Shown piece after piece: positions 33,898 to 42,845 of a stretch of 64,000 nucleotides of DNA. How positions within the stretch are numbered: the stretch's first letter is position 1; every line of letters starts with the position of its first letter. Origin of the DNA: an uncultured Acidimicrobiales bacterium (GTDB lineage: Bacteria > Actinomycetota > Acidimicrobiia > Acidimicrobiales > SHLQ01); assembly GCA_938041035.1 (NCBI GenBank), contig CALHYX010000001.1, positions 1 through 64,000 on the forward strand, written 5' to 3'. The position numbers and the translations under genes are program-made. A model generated the notes under the pieces. It saw nothing but the letters and a program-made list of their open reading frames with translations. It was not told where the DNA came from and did no database searches.

Positions 33898-34727
33898 GTG
33901 GCCGACTCGGCGCGCTTGCGCTGTCGACGCATCCGGAGCCAGCCGAAGGCGATGGCTCCCTCGTAGAAGATGTACATCGGGATCGTGAGTACGCCGAGCG
34001 TGAACGGGTCACCGCTCGGGGTGATGACGGCGACGAGGATGACGATGCCGACGATGGCGTAGCGCCGGTTGTTCCGCAGCGTCTTGTTCTCGAGCACGCC
34101 GATAATCTGGAGGAACGCGAGCAGCAGCGGGAACTGAAAGCCGAATCCGAAGGCCAACATCATCTTCACCACGAAGTTGAGGTAGGGCTTGGGCGAGAAC
34201 AGCGAAACCAGGTTGTCGCCGCCGATCGTGGTGAGCAGTTCGAGCGCCCGGGGGATGCTCCAGTAGGCGAGGCCGGCGCCGAGGGCGAAGAGGGAGGCGC
34301 CGAGGCCGACGAACGGGATGGCGTACCGGCGTTCGTGGGGGTACAGGCCCGGCGTCACGAATTTCCAGACCTGGAACAAGATGATCGGGATGGCAAACGC
34401 CAGACCGGTGTACGCGCTCACCGAGATACGGGTGGAGAACTCTTCGAGCGGCTCGGTGACGAACAGAGCGCAGCTCTCGGTGGTCAACAAGCCAACGTCG
34501 TCGTCGGTGACCTCGTCGGGCGTGGGCAGCACGTTGCAGTACGGCTCGATGAGCCAGGCGAAGATCTGGTCGTAGAAAATCCAGGCCACGATCGCGCCGG
34601 CGGCGACGGCGATTGCGATGCGGATCAGGCGGGTGCGCAGTTCGGTGAGGTGGTCGATGAGGGACATGCGTCCCTCGGTCGGCGCCGGCTCCTCGTCGAC
34701 GGGTTCGTCCTCCTCGATGGCGGTCAC
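33894..34727 (-). CDS. tatC: Twin-arginine translocase subunit TatC
   Basis: This 277-residue protein has six membrane helices. The conserved N-terminal motif is SLIDHLTELRTRL at about residues 22-34, and the FVTPGLYPHERRY segment at about 125 is also diagnostic. TatC binds the twin-arginine signal of folded exported proteins. It overlaps tatA upstream and helY downstream as GTGA junctions, so the three are one transcription unit. GTG 34727 is the chosen start. Confidence 0.96.
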   Translation of the reverse strand: MTAIEEDEPVDEEPAPTEGRMSLIDHLTELRTRLIRIAIAVAAGAIVAWIFYDQIFAWLIEPYCNVLPTPDEVTDDDVGLLTTESCALFVTEPLEEFSTRISVSAYTGLAFAIPIILFQVWKFVTPGLYPHERRYAIPFVGLGASLFALGAGLAYWSIPRALELLTTIGGDNLVSLFSPKPYLNFVVKMMLAFGFGFQFPLLLAFLQIIGVLENKTLRNNRRYAIVGIVILVAVITPSGDPFTLGVLTIPMYIFYEGAIAFGWLRMRRQRKRAESAT

Positions 34728-35500
34728 CCGGGATCCGTTTCATCGAGAATCTCCGCGACCTGTTTGGCTGCCCTCTGTTCAGCGGCTTCGTAGCCGTTGC
34801 GCAGGCCGGGAGCCATCGGGGCCGCGCCTCCGTCGGCGCCGGCGTTCTGGTCGCCGCCGGGGCCGGCGGCGGTATCGATCTGATCGATCCGTTCGAGCTC
34901 GGCGCGGTCGGCCTCATCTCGGGCGGCGAGCTCTCGAGCCGTGGCCGCCGCGGCGAGGGCCTGGCTGGAGTTCGCCGCCGCAACCGTATTGGTGGGTACG
35001 GCTGGCGCTGTGTCGTTCGGTTCGGTGTCGTTGGTCTCGGTGGTGGGCTCCGGCGGGCGCGGGGCGGCCGAGGAAATCCCGCCGATCATGGCCTGGCCGG
35101 TGGCCCGGGCCTTGCGCTCGACCTCGTTCTCTTCCTCGGACTGGTCGTCGGCGAACGCGGCGAGGACCGCTGGGTCCGCGACGTAGCCGGAATCGTTGCC
35201 GGCGTCGGAATCGGCACCCGGGCCGGTGTCGGCCACTCCTGCGCTGTCGGCTGTCTTGTCCGCCGTCTTGTCCGCCGTCTTGTCCGCCGTGGGGGTCGAC
35301 TTTTGGCCGGTGATGTCGACCGCGGCCTCGACCTCGTCGAGGGCCGACTTCATCTCCGCCTGGAATCCGGACGACAGGCGGCGCAGTTCGCCGTACGCTC
35401 GCCCCACCTGACGGGCGGCTTCGGGCAGTTTGGTGGGGCCGAGGACGATCAACGCCACCAACAAGATGACGAGAATCTCGCCTCCACCAACAGAACCCAT
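34724..35500 (-). CDS. tatA: TatA/TatB-family translocase subunit with long acidic tail
   Basis: This 258-residue protein starts with the TatA/B hairpin: one membrane helix (GGGEILVILLVALIVLGPTKL), the GPxKLP hinge and an amphipathic helix to about residue 60. The rest, about 195 residues, is acidic, Ala/Thr/Asp-rich and probably disordered. It contains three copies of the tetrapeptide ADKT, coded by a 12-bp tandem repeat. The length favours TatB-like rather than TatA-like function. No second TatA-like gene is in the window. It is translationally coupled to tatC. Confidence 0.9.
   Translation of the reverse strand: MGSVGGGEILVILLVALIVLGPTKLPEAARQVGRAYGELRRLSSGFQAEMKSALDEVEAAVDITGQKSTPTADKTADKTADKTADSAGVADTGPGADSDAGNDSGYVADPAVLAAFADDQSEEENEVERKARATGQAMIGGISSAAPRPPEPTTETNDTEPNDTAPAVPTNTVAAANSSQALAAAATARELAARDEADRAELERIDQIDTAAGPGGDQNAGADGGAAPMAPGLRNGYEAAEQRAAKQVAEILDETDPG
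35255..35290. repeat. 12-bp tandem repeat in the tatA tail
   Basis: Three perfect copies of CTTGTCCGCCGT (plus-strand view) lie in frame and code three repeated ADKT-type units. The copy number could vary without breaking the frame. Confidence 0.9.
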
Positions 35501-35554
35501 AGCAGGGCAGTCTACCGACCGGATCGACCCGATACGGCAGCAGAGCCGCGACGG

Positions 35555-35890
35555 CTAGGCCTGGTCGAGGCTTTCGAGCGCTTCGGTAAGGAGGTCATCG
35601 TTGGCGAGCACATCGTGGAAATCGATGATGTCGTCGTGGTTGATCGGCGCACCGATCGTCGGCCGCTCGTGCAGTTCGAGCGGCAACGTCCAGGTGTCCA
35701 GATGTACTCCGGACGCCACGAGTAGGTCTACCGTCCGAGCTTCAGCCGGCTTGACGACGGTCATCACGCAGATCGGGCAGCGAAACGAATATTCGCCGCG
35801 ATCGTCGTCCAGACAGACGCGTACCCGCACGTCGTTTGTCGTCAGCTCTACGTCCCCGCAGGTTGGGCAAGTTGCCCGAATCGTTGCCAT
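35555..35890 (-). CDS. Small zinc-ribbon protein of unknown function
   Basis: This 111-residue protein has two Cys pairs, CPTC near residue 8 and CPIC near residue 38, that would form a zinc ribbon. An acidic C-terminal part follows (NHDDIIDFHDVLANDDLLTE). The ribbon resembles those that recognise nucleic acid or partner proteins, but no family name is certain. It sits directly upstream of tatA on the same strand. Its 5' leader carries a 24-nt motif shared with the leader of the XRE-type gene in the proteasome cluster, which suggests common control. Confidence 0.75.
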   Translation of the reverse strand: MATIRATCPTCGDVELTTNDVRVRVCLDDDRGEYSFRCPICVMTVVKPAEARTVDLLVASGVHLDTWTLPLELHERPTIGAPINHDDIIDFHDVLANDDLLTEALESLDQA

Positions 35891-35925
35891 CTTGGTGATG
35901 GTCCTCCTCGTGTCTCTACATTGAT

Positions 35926-35949
35926 CGGCACGACGAAGCCGTCCCTTAA
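35926..35949 (-). promoter_or_regulatory. Shared 24-nt leader motif, copy A
   Basis: On the minus strand this element contains CGGCTTCGTCG and then TGCCG. It lies 35 nt before the ATG of the zinc-ribbon gene, and 21 of 24 positions match the element at 42107-42130. CGGC and GCCG can pair as a small hairpin with an 8-nt loop. Confidence 0.5.
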
Positions 35950-36121
35950 CGGGTCGAACGACTCCTTTGGCTCCCTGGGGTACAGGTCGGGAGGCCCAAC
36001 GCAGCAGCCGAGGGACCTATGTTCCGGTCGGGCATCGACGTTATGCGCCCGTTGGTTGCAACAAGGGCGGGGCGATCCGCCGGTTTGGCCATGGCGGGCA
36101 GACTTGGCACGATGGCAGGCC

Positions 36122-36841
36122 ATGGGTCCCCGATTGCCGCCGCTGGTAGACGTACCGATCATGTTCGCCCACCGCGGGGCCCGGGCCCATGCCCCCGAAA
36201 ACACCCTCGAGGCCTTTCGATTGGCGGCCAAGCTGGGCGCTACGGGCATCGAAAGCGACGTGTGGATCACCGCGGACGGTGTTCCGGTGCTCGACCATGA
36301 CGGTGTGGTCGGCAAGCTGCTGCGGCGGCGCCCCATCAGCTCGGTGCCGCGCCACGAGCTCCCGCCCCACATTCCATCGCTGGCCGAGTACTACCAGGCC
36401 ATGGGTACCGAGTTTGAGCTATCGCTCGACGTGAAGGATGCCGACGCCGTGGGTGCGGTTATCGACGTGGCGCGCACGTTTGGGCCCGATGCACTCCCCC
36501 GTCTGTGGCTGTGTCACCCGGACTGGAAGCTCGTGGCGGGGTGGCGGGCAATCGACGACGCCGTCCGACTGGTCGATTCCACCCGCTTCAAGCACTTCGA
36601 GCAGGGCCCCGAACGCCGCGCCGCGGACCTCGCCGAGGCGGGTATTGACGCCATCAACATGCACCACAGCGACTGGTCCGGCGGGTTGACCACGATGTTC
36701 CACCGATTCGGTGTGCGGGCGTTCTCGTGGGATCTGCAGTTCGAGCGAACCCTCGATGAGTCGCTGCGAATGGGTATGGACGCGGTGTATAGCGACCATG
36801 TCGACCGCATGGTCGACCGGGTCAAAGCCTTCTACGGTTAG
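36122..36841 (+). CDS. Glycerophosphodiester phosphodiesterase
   Basis: This 239-residue enzyme has the GDPD signature at its start (FAHRGARAHAPENTLEAFRLA), where His-Arg-Gly binds phosphate and the Glu-Asn pair binds metal. The second metal and catalytic histidine region is ESDVWITADGVPVLDHDG, and the C-terminal WSWD-like element appears as AFSWDLQ. It hydrolyses glycerophosphodiesters to glycerol-3-phosphate and an alcohol. It is the only plus-strand gene inside the long minus-strand cluster. ATG 36122 has no strong ribosome site. Confidence 0.9.
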   Translation: MGPRLPPLVDVPIMFAHRGARAHAPENTLEAFRLAAKLGATGIESDVWITADGVPVLDHDGVVGKLLRRRPISSVPRHELPPHIPSLAEYYQAMGTEFELSLDVKDADAVGAVIDVARTFGPDALPRLWLCHPDWKLVAGWRAIDDAVRLVDSTRFKHFEQGPERRAADLAEAGIDAINMHHSDWSGGLTTMFHRFGVRAFSWDLQFERTLDESLRMGMDAVYSDHVDRMVDRVKAFYG

Positions 36842-36870
36842 GCCGTGTCGGACCGGCGCGGAGTTGGCGG

Positions 36871-38115
36871 TTACAGGCGGCCGAACTTGCCGGGGGGCCA
36901 GACCAGGACTACCGCGCGGCCGACGACGAGCTCGGAGTCGATGGGTCCAAAGCTGCGGCTGTCGGTTGAGTTACCGCGGTTGTCACCCATCATGAACAGA
37001 TGCCCCTCGGGAACGGTGCACGACGCGCCGTCGCCCTGTGGGTTCGCGCAGCTGGCGGTCCACACCGAACCGCCGGACCGGATGCCTTCGCCCAGGTAGG
37101 GCTCGACCAGGAGTTCGTCACCGATGAGGACCTGGCCGTTGCGGATGGTCACGGTCTCGCCGGGAAGGCCGACCACCCGTTTGATCAACTCGTTGACGTC
37201 GCGGGCCGTCGATGTCGGCGGTCGCTCAAACACCAGGAGATCGCCGCGCTCGGGGTTGTCGTCGAGCTTGTTGACCAGAATGCGGTCGTTGCGTTCGAGG
37301 GTGGGCTCCATCGACTCCGACGGAATGTAGAACGCCTGAAAGAAGAACGTCTTGATGATGAGGGCGACGACGAGGGCGCCGACGATGACGGCTGCCCATT
37401 CGATAGCGGATCGCAGCCACTGATCGGTGGCGTTGGTCTCGCCGGCGGCATCGAGTTCGCCGGCTTCGGCGTCGCCATCGTCCGGGCGTTCGTCGGTGTC
37501 GCCGAAGAACTGGTCCAGCGTCTCGTCGTCGGCCACCACGGCCTCGTCGTCGGCGAACCGCGGCTGTTCGGACAGCCGGGCGGCGGTCGATGTGGACTCC
37601 GCGGCGACGCCGGCACCCACCAGTGGTGCGGCGGCGTTCGCCGCTGAGGATGGGGTAGCTGTCGGCGAGCCCGCTGCGGGTGATCGCAGTCCGGCCTCGG
37701 ATGGTTGGGCGAGGCGGGCCTCCTCGTGCTCGAGCCACGCCGGTCGCCCCGAGGCGGTCGGGGGCCCGGCTTCGGGCGCCGCTGCTGCGCGAGCAACGAA
37801 CTCGGTGGGACTCGGAGTGGCGGGCGGTGCCGGGGAAACCGGCGTGGGTGCTGCATCCGGCGTTGCCGGCGCACCGGTCGACGGCAGCGCGGCCGGCGTT
37901 GTCGGAGGCGGTGTCATCAGGGGGGTGGCCGGCGGCGGTGTCACCGTCGGTGGCGCGGTGGATGGCGGCGGGGTCGACCCGCCCGGCTGGTCGCGAAGGC
38001 GCTCCGCGGCCCGCTCGCGCGCCCGGGCCGCCATCTTTGCCGCGAAATCCGGATCATCGAGATCCGGCACGTCGCCGCGGTTTGGTTCGGTGGGGTCAGC
38101 GCCCTCGGTGGTCAC
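36871..38115 (-). CDS. lepB: Signal peptidase I with long disordered N-terminus
   Basis: This 414-residue protein has the S26 signal-peptidase core in its last 155 residues. One membrane helix (about 238-260) is followed by the catalytic serine in IPSESMEP (Ser268) and the lysine in ELIKRVVGLPGE (Lys312), and the closing GDNRGNSTDSRSFG also fits. The roughly 235 residues before the helix are Pro/Ala/Thr- and acid-rich and would lie in the cytoplasm. GTG 38115 is preferred because TAGGGT lies 8 nt upstream; a frame opening at 38142 would add nine residues. It cleaves signal peptides of Sec and Tat substrates and lies near the tat genes. Confidence 0.92.
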   Translation of the reverse strand: MTTEGADPTEPNRGDVPDLDDPDFAAKMAARARERAAERLRDQPGGSTPPPSTAPPTVTPPPATPLMTPPPTTPAALPSTGAPATPDAAPTPVSPAPPATPSPTEFVARAAAAPEAGPPTASGRPAWLEHEEARLAQPSEAGLRSPAAGSPTATPSSAANAAAPLVGAGVAAESTSTAARLSEQPRFADDEAVVADDETLDQFFGDTDERPDDGDAEAGELDAAGETNATDQWLRSAIEWAAVIVGALVVALIIKTFFFQAFYIPSESMEPTLERNDRILVNKLDDNPERGDLLVFERPPTSTARDVNELIKRVVGLPGETVTIRNGQVLIGDELLVEPYLGEGIRSGGSVWTASCANPQGDGASCTVPEGHLFMMGDNRGNSTDSRSFGPIDSELVVGRAVVLVWPPGKFGRL

Positions 38116-38123
38116 AACTGCCG

Positions 38124-38129
38124 ACCCTA
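38124..38129 (-). promoter_or_regulatory. Putative -10 box (TAGGGT) for lepB
   Basis: On the minus strand TAGGGT ends 8 nt before GTG 38115 and there is no Shine-Dalgarno. It is the promoter-like element nearest the chosen start. Confidence 0.4.
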
Positions 38130-38191
38130 CCTTCCGTACCAAAGCCAGTTGTGCTCATCAGCGGAAATAACTGTCTCAACGTCGCAAGAAA

Positions 38192-39142
38192 TCACCGGGG
38201 GTACCGGGCCAGGACTCGGGCCGCAGCGTCGGCGGTGAACGTCCCGCCGAAGCGGGCGTCGCCGCCGACCACGCGGGCCGCGGGCCCCAACCGCAGTAGG
38301 AGCCGTTCCAGCCACGGATCGCCCGTCACCGCCAGGGTGAGTCGGAATGCCCCGTCGTCGAGGTCCTCCAACCGGTCGTACGGGTAGGTGTCGGCGACCC
38401 AGCGGGCGCTGGCGTCGATCTCGAGCACGACCCGGGCAACGTCGGCGGCTGCATTGAACACGGTGGGAGCGCCCGCGGTGTCGGGGGCGGTGAAGGTGCC
38501 GTCGCGCAGGGTGGCCGACCGAATCCGGTCGACGCGAAAGACGCGTGGAGCCCGGGCGAGCTGGCAGAACGAATCGACGTACCACTGGCCGAGATCGGCG
38601 TGCAGCCGATGCGGTTCGATCGTGCGCGTCACCCGCTCGTCGCGGCTGAACACGTAGTAGTCGAGTTCCACCTCCCGGTTCTCGGCGACCGCGGTCCGCA
38701 GCGTCGCCAGGATCTGCTCGGAGGCGGCACCGATGCGGACGTCGATCGCGCCGTGGGCATCGACACCGATCGCTGTACCCACCTTCGTGAGCGCGCGCAG
38801 CAGTGGGCCGTCCTCGTCCTCGCCGCTGATCTCGAGCATCGATTGCCCGGCCGCCAGCAACGCCAGCCCCTTGTCGGCGGGTAGGCGCAGTGGCTGGGAG
38901 AACCAGTCGGCGTATCGAATCGACACCGTGTCGTCGTCGAGCTCCACCTCGACGAGTGCGTCGGGCGTGAACGGATACACGCCCACGAACGGGACCACGT
39001 CCTGCAGGTCGTTGACCAGCCGCTCGCGCGGGTACCCGAATCGCTCGGCGACCTCGTCGAGGGTCACCTGCTCCTGCTCGACCACCCACGGAATGATCGC
39101 GAGCAGTCGGGTGAGCCGCTCGGTCGAGGTGAACCGGCTCAC
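38192..39142 (-). CDS. pafC: WYL-domain transcriptional regulator PafC
   Basis: This 316-residue protein has an N-terminal winged helix (RLTRLLAIIPWVVEQEQVTL, with DEVAERFGYP) and a WYL domain (the motif appears as QWYVDSFC at about residue 200). PafB and PafC act together as DNA-damage-responsive activators in mycobacteria. It starts at GTG 39142, overlapping the pafB stop as GTGA, and it follows pafA and pafB in the same order as in Mycobacterium. Confidence 0.9.
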   Translation of the reverse strand: MSRFTSTERLTRLLAIIPWVVEQEQVTLDEVAERFGYPRERLVNDLQDVVPFVGVYPFTPDALVEVELDDDTVSIRYADWFSQPLRLPADKGLALLAAGQSMLEISGEDEDGPLLRALTKVGTAIGVDAHGAIDVRIGAASEQILATLRTAVAENREVELDYYVFSRDERVTRTIEPHRLHADLGQWYVDSFCQLARAPRVFRVDRIRSATLRDGTFTAPDTAGAPTVFNAAADVARVVLEIDASARWVADTYPYDRLEDLDDGAFRLTLAVTGDPWLERLLLRLGPAARVVGGDARFGGTFTADAAARVLARYPR

Positions 39143-40053
39143 GTTTGGGCTTCCAGCCACTCGATGAGGTCGGTTCGCAGTTCCGGTGGGGCGAGGACCT
39201 CGGCCCGGTCGAGAAACGTGAGAACAAATGACCGGAACGCCTCGACGTTTCGCACGGACAGCGTGGCGTCGATGCTGCCGTCGGCGTGTTCGATCACTTC
39301 GGCGTCCGGGCCGAGGTGAGCTCGGGCCCACATGCTCAGGTCGGGGTCGATGCGGATCGTCGCCTCGACCGGCTCGTCGTCGCCCATCTCCCATGCGGGT
39401 CGCCGAGCGGCATTGCTGCTCGGACGTTCGGGGCGATCCACCACCGCGGGGCCGCCGACGGTGACCTCGCTCGCAAACCGGTCTACCCGATAGAGCCGTT
39501 CGGCCTCGCGGACGTGATCCCACCCGTTGATGTACCAGTGCCCGCGGTGAAACGAGAGGTGCCACGGCTCCACCCGCCGCACCATGTCGCCGTAGCGAAA
39601 CTCGACCTGGCGTTTTGCTCTGGTCGCTTCGAACAGGGGGCCGAGCTCGTCGTGGGCCGGCAGTTCGGCCAGCACCTCGTCGTCGCCCTCGACCGATCCC
39701 CCACCGAGGGTCTGCATCACGCCGGCCCCATCGATGCCTTCGAGCCGTACCTTGGTGGCCGCCAGGTGTAACGCCGCGAGTTCATCGGGTTCGAGTTGGG
39801 GGTCCACGCCGCCGTAGTCGCCGGGATGAATCCGGTAACCGGACCCGGGCGGATCCGTACCGTGAATAGGTTCCACCGAAATCGGGATGCCCATCAGGCG
39901 GAGTGACTCCTTGTCGCGTTCGAAGGCGCGCCGAAAGGCGTCGTCGCTGTCGGAGTAACCCTCCAGCCGAACCCGCAGCTCGTCCACCGGCAGGGGCCGT
40001 TCGGTAGCGAGGAGGGCGGCGGTCAGGTTCAGGAGTCGTTCGAGCTTGGTCAT
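39139..40053 (-). CDS. pafB: WYL-domain transcriptional regulator PafB
   Basis: This 304-residue protein has an N-terminal helix-turn-helix (RLLNLTAALLATERPLPVDE, then a recognition part near LMGIPISVE) and a WYL domain with GHWYINGWDHV near residue 175. In mycobacteria PafB works with PafC as a transcription factor for DNA-damage genes. The gene lies 57 nt after pafA and overlaps pafC. No DNA-binding site for it can be identified in this window. Confidence 0.9.
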   Translation of the reverse strand: MTKLERLLNLTAALLATERPLPVDELRVRLEGYSDSDDAFRRAFERDKESLRLMGIPISVEPIHGTDPPGSGYRIHPGDYGGVDPQLEPDELAALHLAATKVRLEGIDGAGVMQTLGGGSVEGDDEVLAELPAHDELGPLFEATRAKRQVEFRYGDMVRRVEPWHLSFHRGHWYINGWDHVREAERLYRVDRFASEVTVGGPAVVDRPERPSSNAARRPAWEMGDDEPVEATIRIDPDLSMWARAHLGPDAEVIEHADGSIDATLSVRNVEAFRSFVLTFLDRAEVLAPPELRTDLIEWLEAQT

Positions 40054-40110
40054 CGCAGCGGGTTGGTTACAGCCAGGATCGTTCGTTGCAGCAGCGCATC
40101 AAGGTGCTTA

Positions 40111-41469
40111 CTACAGGCTGGCGATGAGCTTCTCCACCCGCTCGTCGTAGGCCTTGAAGGGGTCCTTGCAGAGCACGGTGCGCTGTGCCTGATCGTTGAG
40201 CTTCAGATGTACCCAGTCGACGGTGTAGTCCCGTTTGCGTTCCTTCGCCCGGCGGATGAACTCGCCGCGCAGCCGGGCGCGGGTCGTTTCCGGCGGCCGT
40301 TCGACGGCTCGGCTGATGTCGGAATCGAGACAGATCCGTTCGACGAGTCCCTTGCGCTGCATCATGTAGTACAGCCCGCGGTCGCGGTTGACGTCGTGGT
40401 ACTGGAGATCGAGCAGCGCGACCCGAGCGTCGGCCAGCGGCAGATCGCCGCGTTCTCGGTAGGCCTCGATCAGCTTGTGCTTGATCACCCAGTCGCATTC
40501 GCGGTCGAGCTTGAGCGGGTCGTCCTCGATGGTGGTGAGGCAGTGTTCCCACATCGCCAGGGCCTTCGACTCGAGCGGGCTGAGTTCGTGGTGCTCGGCA
40601 TAGCGAAGCGCCCGGCTGAGATACTCGCTCTGGATCTCGAGGGCCGAGGCCTCGCGCCCGTTGGCGAGGCGCACCCGGCGGCGACAGGTCATGTCGTGGC
40701 TAATTTCGCGGATGGCCCGGATCGGGTTCTCGAGCGTCATGTCGCGCAGCACGACCTTGGGCTCTTCGAGCATCCGCAACATGATGCTGGCTGCTCCGAC
40801 CTTCAGGAACGTGGCGTACTCGCTCATGTTGGAGTCGCCCACGATGACGTGGAGCCGGCGGTAGCGCTCGGCGTCGGCGTGCGGTTCGTCTCGGGTGTTG
40901 ATGATCGGCCGGGACCGGGTGGTGGCGCTCGAGACGCCCTCCCAGATGTGTTCGGCGCGTTGGGACACGCAGTACATGGCGCCGCGCGCGGTCTGGAGTA
41001 CCTTGCCGGCCCCGGCATAGATCTGTCGGCTCACGAGGAACGGGATGAGGACCTCGGCGTAGGATCCGAAATCGTCTCGGCGGCTGGTGAGGTAGTTCTC
41101 GTGGCAGCCATAGGAATTGCCGGCGGAATCGGTGTTGTTCTTGAACAGATAGATGTCACCGCGGATCCCCTCTTCCTGGAGACGCTGCTCGGCGCTGGCC
41201 AACAGCTGCTCGAGGATCCGCTCGCCGGCCTTGTCGTGCACGACGAGGTCGTAGATGGAATCACACTCGGGCGTCGCGTACTCGGGGTGACTGCCGACGT
41301 CGAGATACAGCCGGGCACCGTTCGCGAGGAAGACGTTGGAGCTTCGCCCCCAGGAGACGACCCGACGAAACAGGTACCGGGCGACCTCGTCGGGGCTCAG
41401 GCGCCGCTGGCCGCGAAAGGTGCACGTGACGCCGTATTCGTTCTCGATACCGAAGATGCGTCGCTCCAC
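40111..41469 (-). CDS. pafA: Pup-protein ligase PafA
   Basis: This 452-residue ligase belongs to the glutamine-synthetase-like PafA/Dop family. It begins with [20 protein letters not shown], the Mg-ATP site start, and has [13 protein letters not shown] at about residues 114-126 and [22 protein letters not shown] at about 190-211 (only parts cited), all shared with Dop. It joins the C-terminal glutamate of Pup to lysines of substrates with ATP. The length and the absence of the Dop-type internal loop (present in the gene at 44049) separate it from Dop. It lies between an XRE-type gene and pafB. Confidence 0.96.
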
Positions 41470-41491
41470 CAGGGCGACCCTAGCGGCAAAA

Positions 41492-42076
41492 TCAGTCGCT
41501 TCCGGATTCGTCCGGGGTCACGTGCAGATGGCTGCGCAGTGTGTCGGCGATTCCGGCGAAGTCGCCCTCGGCCCCGGCGAGCCAATAGGCGAAGCGCTGT
41601 TCGAGGTGGGGGTCGTCGAGGTTGAGCAGCGGGGCCAGGCCGGGCTGGTCGGCAGTGCGCAGGTGAACCCGGCCGGTCTCGGCCATGTTGCGCATCTCTC
41701 GCACGGCGCGGGCGTAGGAGCGCAGCAGGTAGTCGTTGTCGTGGTCGGGGTTGCGGTGCGGGGCGTAGTCGACGGTCAGCCAGCTCACGTACAGGGTGCC
41801 GGTGGCGGCGTCGTAGCGCAGCGGCTCACGTTCGGTGATTTCCCGGTTCGGGAGGGCCGTCGGAGAGATGCCGTACAGGTTGGCGAGGTCGTCGATCAAC
41901 GACGGTGACGGGTCGCCGAGTCCGGCTTCCACCTCGCGAAGACGGTCGGTGGAGATGCCGACGCACGAGGCGGCCGCCTCCACGGAAAACCCGACGCGGG
42001 TGCGGGCCTTGTTGAGCGCTTCGCTCAACGGGACCGGGGTGTTGTCTTCTGCAAGCTGGGTGATGAGGACCGACAT
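41492..42076 (-). CDS. XRE-type helix-turn-helix protein inside the proteasome cluster
   Basis: This 194-residue protein has an N-terminal helix-turn-helix at about residues 18-75 ([20 protein letters not shown], with [12 protein letters not shown]), the pattern of XRE-family DNA-binding domains. The following 120 residues are unknown, with a charged segment ([17 protein letters not shown]). It may regulate the surrounding genes, but no target is known. It sits between prcA and pafA on the same strand and has the 24-nt leader motif. The start is ATG 42076, with GGAG at a workable distance upstream. Confidence 0.8.
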
Positions 42077-42106
42077 GGCGGGATGATCTCCTTGTTGATC
42101 TCTTTT

Positions 42107-42130
42107 CGGCGCGACGAAGCCGGCCCTTTA
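42107..42130 (-). promoter_or_regulatory. Shared 24-nt leader motif, copy B
   Basis: On the minus strand the element contains CGGCTTCGTCG and then CGCCG, with TAAAGGG ahead of it. It lies 30 nt before the ATG of the XRE-type gene and matches 21 of 24 positions of the element at 35926-35949. Confidence 0.5.
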
Positions 42131-42170
42131 GGCCCGGACCCCGGGCTTGCACACCATTCGAGCGGGGCGG

Positions 42171-42845
42171 CTAGAGCAGGCCGGTGAGTTCGTCGCCCTC
42201 GACGCGGCGGAAACAGCGTCGGTCGCTACCGCGGTCGAGCAGGGCGACTTCGAGGTCGTCGGCGCTCAGCGAGCGTTCACCGTTGGCCAGCGCCCCGACC
42301 GCGAGGGCGAGGGCCCCGGCGACGTCGAGCCCGGGCGAATAGCCCTCCGATACGGCCACCCGGATGGTGTCGGCGTCGCCGCCCAACACCACGAAGTCGT
42401 CGTGGTCGCTGACGGAACCGTCGTACAGGATGTGGAACAACCGGTCGTCGACGCTGTCGTGGCCGATCTCGGCGACCAGGATCTCGACCTCCATCGGCTT
42501 CATCTCGTGGGTGAAGACCTGGCCGAGGATCTGGGCGTACTGATTGGCGAGGCTGCGGGCGTCGACATCGTCGCGGCTGTAGCTGTAGCCCTTGAGATCG
42601 GCGTGGCGAATACCGGAGATGCGGAGTTGGTCGAACTCGTTGTACTTGCCGACACCGGCGAACCCGATGCGGTCGTAGATCTCGGAGACCTTGTGGAGCG
42701 TGTTGGACGGGTTCTCGGCGACGATGAGGACGCCGGCATCGCACATCAGCCCGATGAGGCTCTTGCCCCGAGCGATGCCCTTGCGGGCATAGTCGGCCAT
42801 GTCCTTCATGCGCTGCTCGGGCGATACGTAGAACGGTGCGCTCAT
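42171..42845 (-). CDS. prcA: Proteasome alpha subunit PrcA
   Basis: This 224-residue protein begins with the alpha-type gate segment FYVSPEQRMKDMADYARKG, as in other actinobacterial alpha subunits. GSLIGLMCDAGVLIVAE-type strands (here KSLIGLMCDAGVLIVAE) begin the beta-sandwich fold. It lacks the catalytic N-terminal threonine, as expected for an alpha subunit. Seven copies would cap the beta rings of the 20S core. GGAGG lies upstream of ATG 42845, and a 14-codon reading frame bridges the prcB stop and this start. Confidence 0.95.
   Translation of the reverse strand: MSAPFYVSPEQRMKDMADYARKGIARGKSLIGLMCDAGVLIVAENPSNTLHKVSEIYDRIGFAGVGKYNEFDQLRISGIRHADLKGYSYSRDDVDARSLANQYAQILGQVFTHEMKPMEVEILVAEIGHDSVDDRLFHILYDGSVSDHDDFVVLGGDADTIRVAVSEGYSPGLDVAGALALAVGALANGERSLSADDLEVALLDRGSDRRCFRRVEGDELTGLL

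Follow-up and report, generated by a model that had tools for sequence, protein, structure and literature searches.

Among the genes on a window of 64,000 nucleotides (the whole stretch of DNA analysed in this study) from an uncultured Acidimicrobiales bacterium, two carry nearly the same 24-nt element in their leaders, which raises the question of what could link them. The first is an XRE-type gene (41492..42076, minus strand), whose product matches HTH_31 with 37.1 bits against a cut-off of 27 and which lies between prcA (42171-42845) and pafA (40111-41469). The second (35555..35890, minus strand) encodes a zinc-ribbon protein of 111 aa with no family over cut-off and is located 54 nt before tatA (34724-35500). 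The XRE copy, TAAAGGGCCGGCTTCGTCGCGCCG, occupies positions 42130-42107 of the minus strand and ends 30 nt 5' of the ATG, and the zinc-ribbon copy, TTAAGGGACGGCTTCGTCGTGCCG, occupies positions 35949-35926 of the minus strand and ends 35 nt 5' of the ATG. The copies have the same orientation, are identical at 21 of 24 positions and differ at 3, so that the element and its distances from the two start codons are real features of this DNA, as the original prediction had stated.

A 22-nt pattern drawn from the element, AAGGGNCGGCTTCGTCGNGCCG, was matched with up to 3 mismatches only by the two copies in the window, where 0.05 matches were expected, and none of 100 shuffles attained two. The core CGGCTTCGTCG, on which the original prediction had centred, is by itself a common word: the window holds 28 occurrences with at most one mismatch, where 6.4 would be expected. 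The 16-mer CGGCTTCGTCGNGCCG was found exactly at one additional site in the whole genome, within an open frame of 452 codons, with one mismatch at 18 sites, and with up to two mismatches at 329 sites, compared with 103 for the reversed control. The pair therefore exceeds chance, but the word as such is frequent in this genome, and the informative parts of the element are its two ends, TNAAGG and GCCGA, and not the core.

Homologs of the zinc-ribbon gene were matched in 43 of the 59 relatives searched. For leader comparison, the best 80 of 167 loci from named genomes were used, mostly from uncultured Acidimicrobiia or Acidimicrobiales; these loci partly overlap the 59-genome set, and the two samples are thus not independent. 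In 75 of the best 80 loci the gene is followed on the same strand, 28-529 nt on, by a TatA match. Adding the window brought the number of leaders to 81, of which 69 remained after dropping those at least 70% alike, and all pairs of 4-mers with gaps of 8-25 were then counted in an unbiased dyad search. The top dyads in this set (best 80 of 167 loci plus the window) were TCAA-N17-CCGA and CTCA-N18-CCGA, each present in 32 of 69 leaders, while the largest count for any dyad over 30 shuffles was 7. In the same set T[ACT]AA-N17-CCGA was found in 45 of 69 leaders (shuffle mean 0.2), the N16 form in 8 and every other gap in at most 2 (shuffle means 0.1-0.5), and the commonest distance from TNAA to GCCGA was 16 nt, followed by 15. 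Alignment of 44 of the 45 motif-bearing leaders (best 80 of 167), in which TNAA and CCGA are fixed by selection, showed information in the unselected columns next to them: 1.21 bits for a C preceding and 0.84 for a G following the first box, and 0.92 for a T and 1.04 for a G preceding CCGA, with 0.88 for the T/A that follows. Spacer columns 7-18 hold at most 0.25 bit each in these aligned leaders.

Minor variation was observed by eye in this gene family. The zinc-ribbon paralogues L300 (G008) and L301 (G003) show TCAA or TTAA separated by 14 nt from GCCGATAG, with an ATG some 8 nt further on, and the leaders L286 (G027), L284 (G025) and L080 (G032) have a spacer of 17, one base longer; the divergent sigma factors of G027, G025 and G032 form one clade. 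A dyad resembling GGGTC-N4-GACCC adjoins the first box in some zinc-ribbon leaders (window 35950-35963; L205, L207, L212 and L215). As a general feature such a dyad was rejected: perfect 5-bp dyads occur in 10 of 61 leaders, where shuffles averaged 4.7 and reached 10 at most, and the difference is not significant.

Each copy of the element is very probably a promoter of the sigma-28 (FliA/WhiG) type, of the form T(A/T)AAGG-N14-GCCGA. With flanking bases included, the XRE copy reads TAAAGG-N14-GCCGAAAA, all on the minus strand, with its putative -35 box at 42125..42130, the spacer at 42111..42124 and the -10 box at 42103..42110, and the zinc-ribbon copy reads TTAAGG-N14-GCCGATCA, with the corresponding parts at 35944..35949, 35930..35943 and 35922..35929 of the same strand. 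The core CGGCTTCGTCG falls at both sites entirely inside the spacer between the boxes, which is not conserved. For Rubrobacter, one study gives a rule for WhiG targets of a -35 TAAA and a -10 GCCGATAA with no more than 2 mismatches and within 200 bp of the start codon (PMC8325347); by that rule the XRE site (TAAA/GCCGAAAA) has 1 mismatch and the zinc-ribbon site (TTAA/GCCGATCA) has 2. Agreement with this box rule, fixed spacing, conserved boxes around a free spacer, and a cognate sigma factor encoded in the genome were all found. In the best explanation the consensus would be a -35 of TNAA(G), 16 nt from TNAA to GCCGA, and a -10 of GCCGA(T/A), and RNA polymerase carrying a sigma factor of the FliA/WhiG family would start about 8-11 nt past GCCGA. 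The XRE and zinc-ribbon mRNAs would then have short leaders in this genome and would be leaderless in many relatives, and transcription might read through into pafA or tatA. What joins the two loci would be a common alternative sigma factor, and not a common operator or RNA structure.

With a start downstream of GCCGA, the element itself would not be transcribed, and this bears directly on the earlier suggestion of a hairpin, RNA switch or RNA-binding site. CGGC can pair with GCCG in both window copies; however, the 4-bp stem is complete in none of 44 orthologous leaders, GCCG is part of the -10 box, the repeat sits upstream of the predicted transcription start, and the two copies show unremarkable folding (z -1.86 and -0.52). 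An Rfam search of 35500-42500 gave no match. We regard a transcribed RNA element as having a nearly negligible probability.

The spacers required separate consideration, since the two in the window agree at 12 of 14 positions, which for a single pair set beforehand has a binomial chance of about 3e-6 to 3e-5. This likeness would be expected if CGGCTTCGTCG were an operator bound by the XRE protein or another regulator, but orthologous leaders do not keep the core (no column among spacer columns 7-18 exceeds 0.25 bit in the 44 aligned, best 80 of 167), it is not common to both leaders in the four relatives compared, where XRE and zinc-ribbon spacers are alike at only 2-5 of 14 positions, and it is a frequent word in this genome. 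Binding by the XRE protein, the specific form of the idea put forward before, finds no support: G005 has no XRE match yet retains the zinc-ribbon promoter. An operator in the core is thus very improbable. A recent event that copied DNA from one leader into the other, with nothing regulatory involved, would account for a spacer likeness confined to this genome; against it, the sequences flanking the element differ and other genomes keep both boxes at each locus, and as a full account of the element it is likewise very improbable. The spacer likeness as such is peculiar to this genome and may reflect a common word, coincidence among many comparisons or recent copying. Of the original prediction, there remains a shared regulatory element present in both leaders, with its ends and their spacing kept in relatives, whereas the core or spacer is not kept and the operator and RNA readings fall away; the promoter reading is the one followed below.

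The XRE gene was matched in 19 of the 59 genomes, and 18 of these belong to a single family. Leaders were compared using the best copy per genome (n=18), with 5 paralogues counted apart. The strict promoter was present in 13 of 18 leaders, where shuffles averaged 0.16 and never exceeded 2, and 15 leaders had the relaxed form (shuffle mean 0.99), compared with 1 and 2 of the 5 paralogues, respectively. The order PrcA, XRE, PafA was found at 16 of 18 loci; at L048 an XRE match also lies between PrcA and PafA, and L038 has neither neighbour. Eight of the 13 leaders with the strict form have their first ATG or GTG 9-11 nt past GCCGA, a spacing typical of leaderless mRNAs, which would place the transcription start 3' of the element. 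The site was also considered as a promoter of pafA, and this was rejected: 17 stretches were fetched, of which 15 had a PafA match and none of these an XRE match, and no site was found in the 400 nt before pafA in any of the 15. The promoter therefore belongs with the XRE gene. By eye, pafA in such XRE-less stretches (L355-L370) is often preceded, a few nt off, by a stretch like TAGGTTGA or TACCGTGG, perhaps a housekeeping leaderless promoter.

The FliA_WhiG model TIGR02479 matched all 59 genomes at E <= 0.001, and 49 of them over the cut-off. In the genome under study two sigma genes of this family pass it. The first encodes WhiG by the equivalog model (362 vs 343 bits); its neighbours appear by eye to be dprA and xerC, with rpsB and tsf three ORFs further on, and the closest solved chains are 6pfj and 6pfv, which we take to be Streptomyces WhiG. 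The second (L126, 8035-9021 of contig C30 in the same genome) lies near what by eye look like gyrB and gyrA and is preceded by two TCAAG-N15-GCCGA sites. Its product passes TIGR02479 (196.2 vs 189.6) and fails both the WhiG equivalog (184.3 vs 343) and the FliA model PRK06986 (173.8 vs 201), and in a tree of 49 rows the WhiG and second-sigma classes separate with 100/100 support.

Leaders of the second sigma gene commonly carry the same promoter. In the core clade, T[ACT]AAG-N15-GCCGA was found in 12 of 26 leaders and a relaxed form in 22 (shuffle means 0.01 and 0.11), a count that omits G031 and the second copies of G042 and G021, and in a divergent sister group the promoter was found in 1 of 9. 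The pattern TMAAGGTN13GCCGAAA has 13 matches in the 59 genomes, with 1 for the reversed form, and 7 of the 13 precede the second sigma gene. The leaders of the divergent group were also inspected by eye; those of L158, L161, L163, L164, L165, L166, L167 and L169 often show ACTAG(T/C) some 50-90 nt before a stretch like CGGCCGAT.

Which of the two sigma factors reads the window sites was addressed by the distribution of the strict zinc-ribbon promoter, with sigma classes set by hand, fragments of WhiG in G005 and of the second sigma in G043 scored as absent, and G031 (just outside the clade) and G018 (absent from the tree) classed as core. The promoter was present in 24 of 26 genomes with the core second sigma and in 6 of 17 without it (p 1.1e-4), as against 25 of 34 with WhiG and 5 of 9 without it (p 0.42), where no clear association is seen. 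On a looser reading by eye (spacer 17 or GTCGA), leaders from some genomes lacking the core second sigma are also promoter-like. We consider the second sigma factor the likelier reader of the two window sites, with some confidence, although relatedness and incomplete genomes confound the comparison and genomes in which only WhiG was found also have matches. The competing view is that WhiG alone reads these promoters and that the second sigma gene is a WhiG target in a cascade and not autoregulated. It agrees with the promoter consensus being common to WhiG (PMC8325347) and with pattern matches in G022, G024 and G056, where only WhiG was found. Set against it are G020, a genome of one contig with no WhiG match over about 205 bits that keeps the zinc-ribbon promoter, and G005, G008 and G014, which keep it with WhiG absent or a fragment, and promoter presence tracks the second sigma and not clearly WhiG. 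We judge this view rather unlikely.

Compared with sigma-28/FliA flagellar promoters (-35 TAAA, -10 GCCGATAA, as given in PMC8325347), the sites in Acidimicrobiia are alike in boxes, order and close spacing, and a sigma factor of the FliA/WhiG family is encoded here too; unlike that consensus, their -35 is mostly TCAA(G), and they differ further in that TNAA and GCCGA stand most often 16 and next most often 15 nt apart. Flagellin_N matched 12 of the 59 genomes searched and had no match in the genome under study, and flagellar regulation was rejected there on this ground. Rubrobacter, likewise an actinobacterium, has promoters of the FliA/WhiG type, which precede c-di-GMP enzymes among others, and RsiG was reported in 3 of 4 Acidimicrobiales species (PMC8325347). 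In contrast to the Rubrobacter targets described there, those found here include the XRE gene of the proteasome cluster and the zinc-ribbon gene before tatA, and a second sigma factor of the family bears the promoter itself. The Streptomyces WhiG targets include whiH and whiI (PMC4255298); it is the first sigma factor that corresponds to this protein by equivalog, the second forming a clade apart. Among the matches listed in a search of open-licence literature, none dealt with promoters of this type in Acidimicrobiia, which is weak evidence of novelty.

We tentatively suggest that Acidimicrobiia may possess, apart from WhiG, a second sigma factor of the flagellar clade, undescribed and autoregulated, that would act as a non-flagellar lifestyle switch. 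The zinc-ribbon gene before tatA would be its most conserved target, joined in one family by the DNA-binding gene between the proteasome and Pup-ligase genes, and its wider set of c-di-GMP enzymes, TadE and sugar transferases would often have leaderless mRNAs. On the promoter reading, an odd repeat becomes a regulon that can be tested: a promoter of the flagellar type is kept across a little-cultured class before a gene that adjoins the Tat genes and has no known function, in one family it precedes a regulator within the Pup-proteasome cluster, and it points to a sigma factor without a match to any named equivalog over cut-off.

The pattern TCAA-N15/16-GCCGAT-N5-10-ATG, about sevenfold over the shifted-spacer control, offers a means of listing possible targets. 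It gave 146 matches in 21 genomes (one G021 site being included twice), against 9 for the reversed pattern and 20 with a spacer of 19-20 nt, and 4 in the genome under study, against 1 for the control. TYAAGG-N14-GCCGATA had 18 matches, compared with 5 for its reversed control. The loose pattern TNAAG-N15-GCCGA had 92 matches in the genome under study against 45 reversed, many of them within long open frames, and 30 of its loci and 20 further stretches were inspected. Seven proteins encoded behind sites were scanned, among which EAL (twice), STAS, a response regulator with GerE, and TadE were over the Pfam cut-offs, and Cache-like and AurF-like proteins were below them; inspection by eye added GGDEF, PAS, sugar-transferase and aminotransferase-like proteins. 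Individually these wider targets are unproven candidates. At many of the sites an ATG follows 6-11 nt further on, which suggests that many of their mRNAs may be leaderless.
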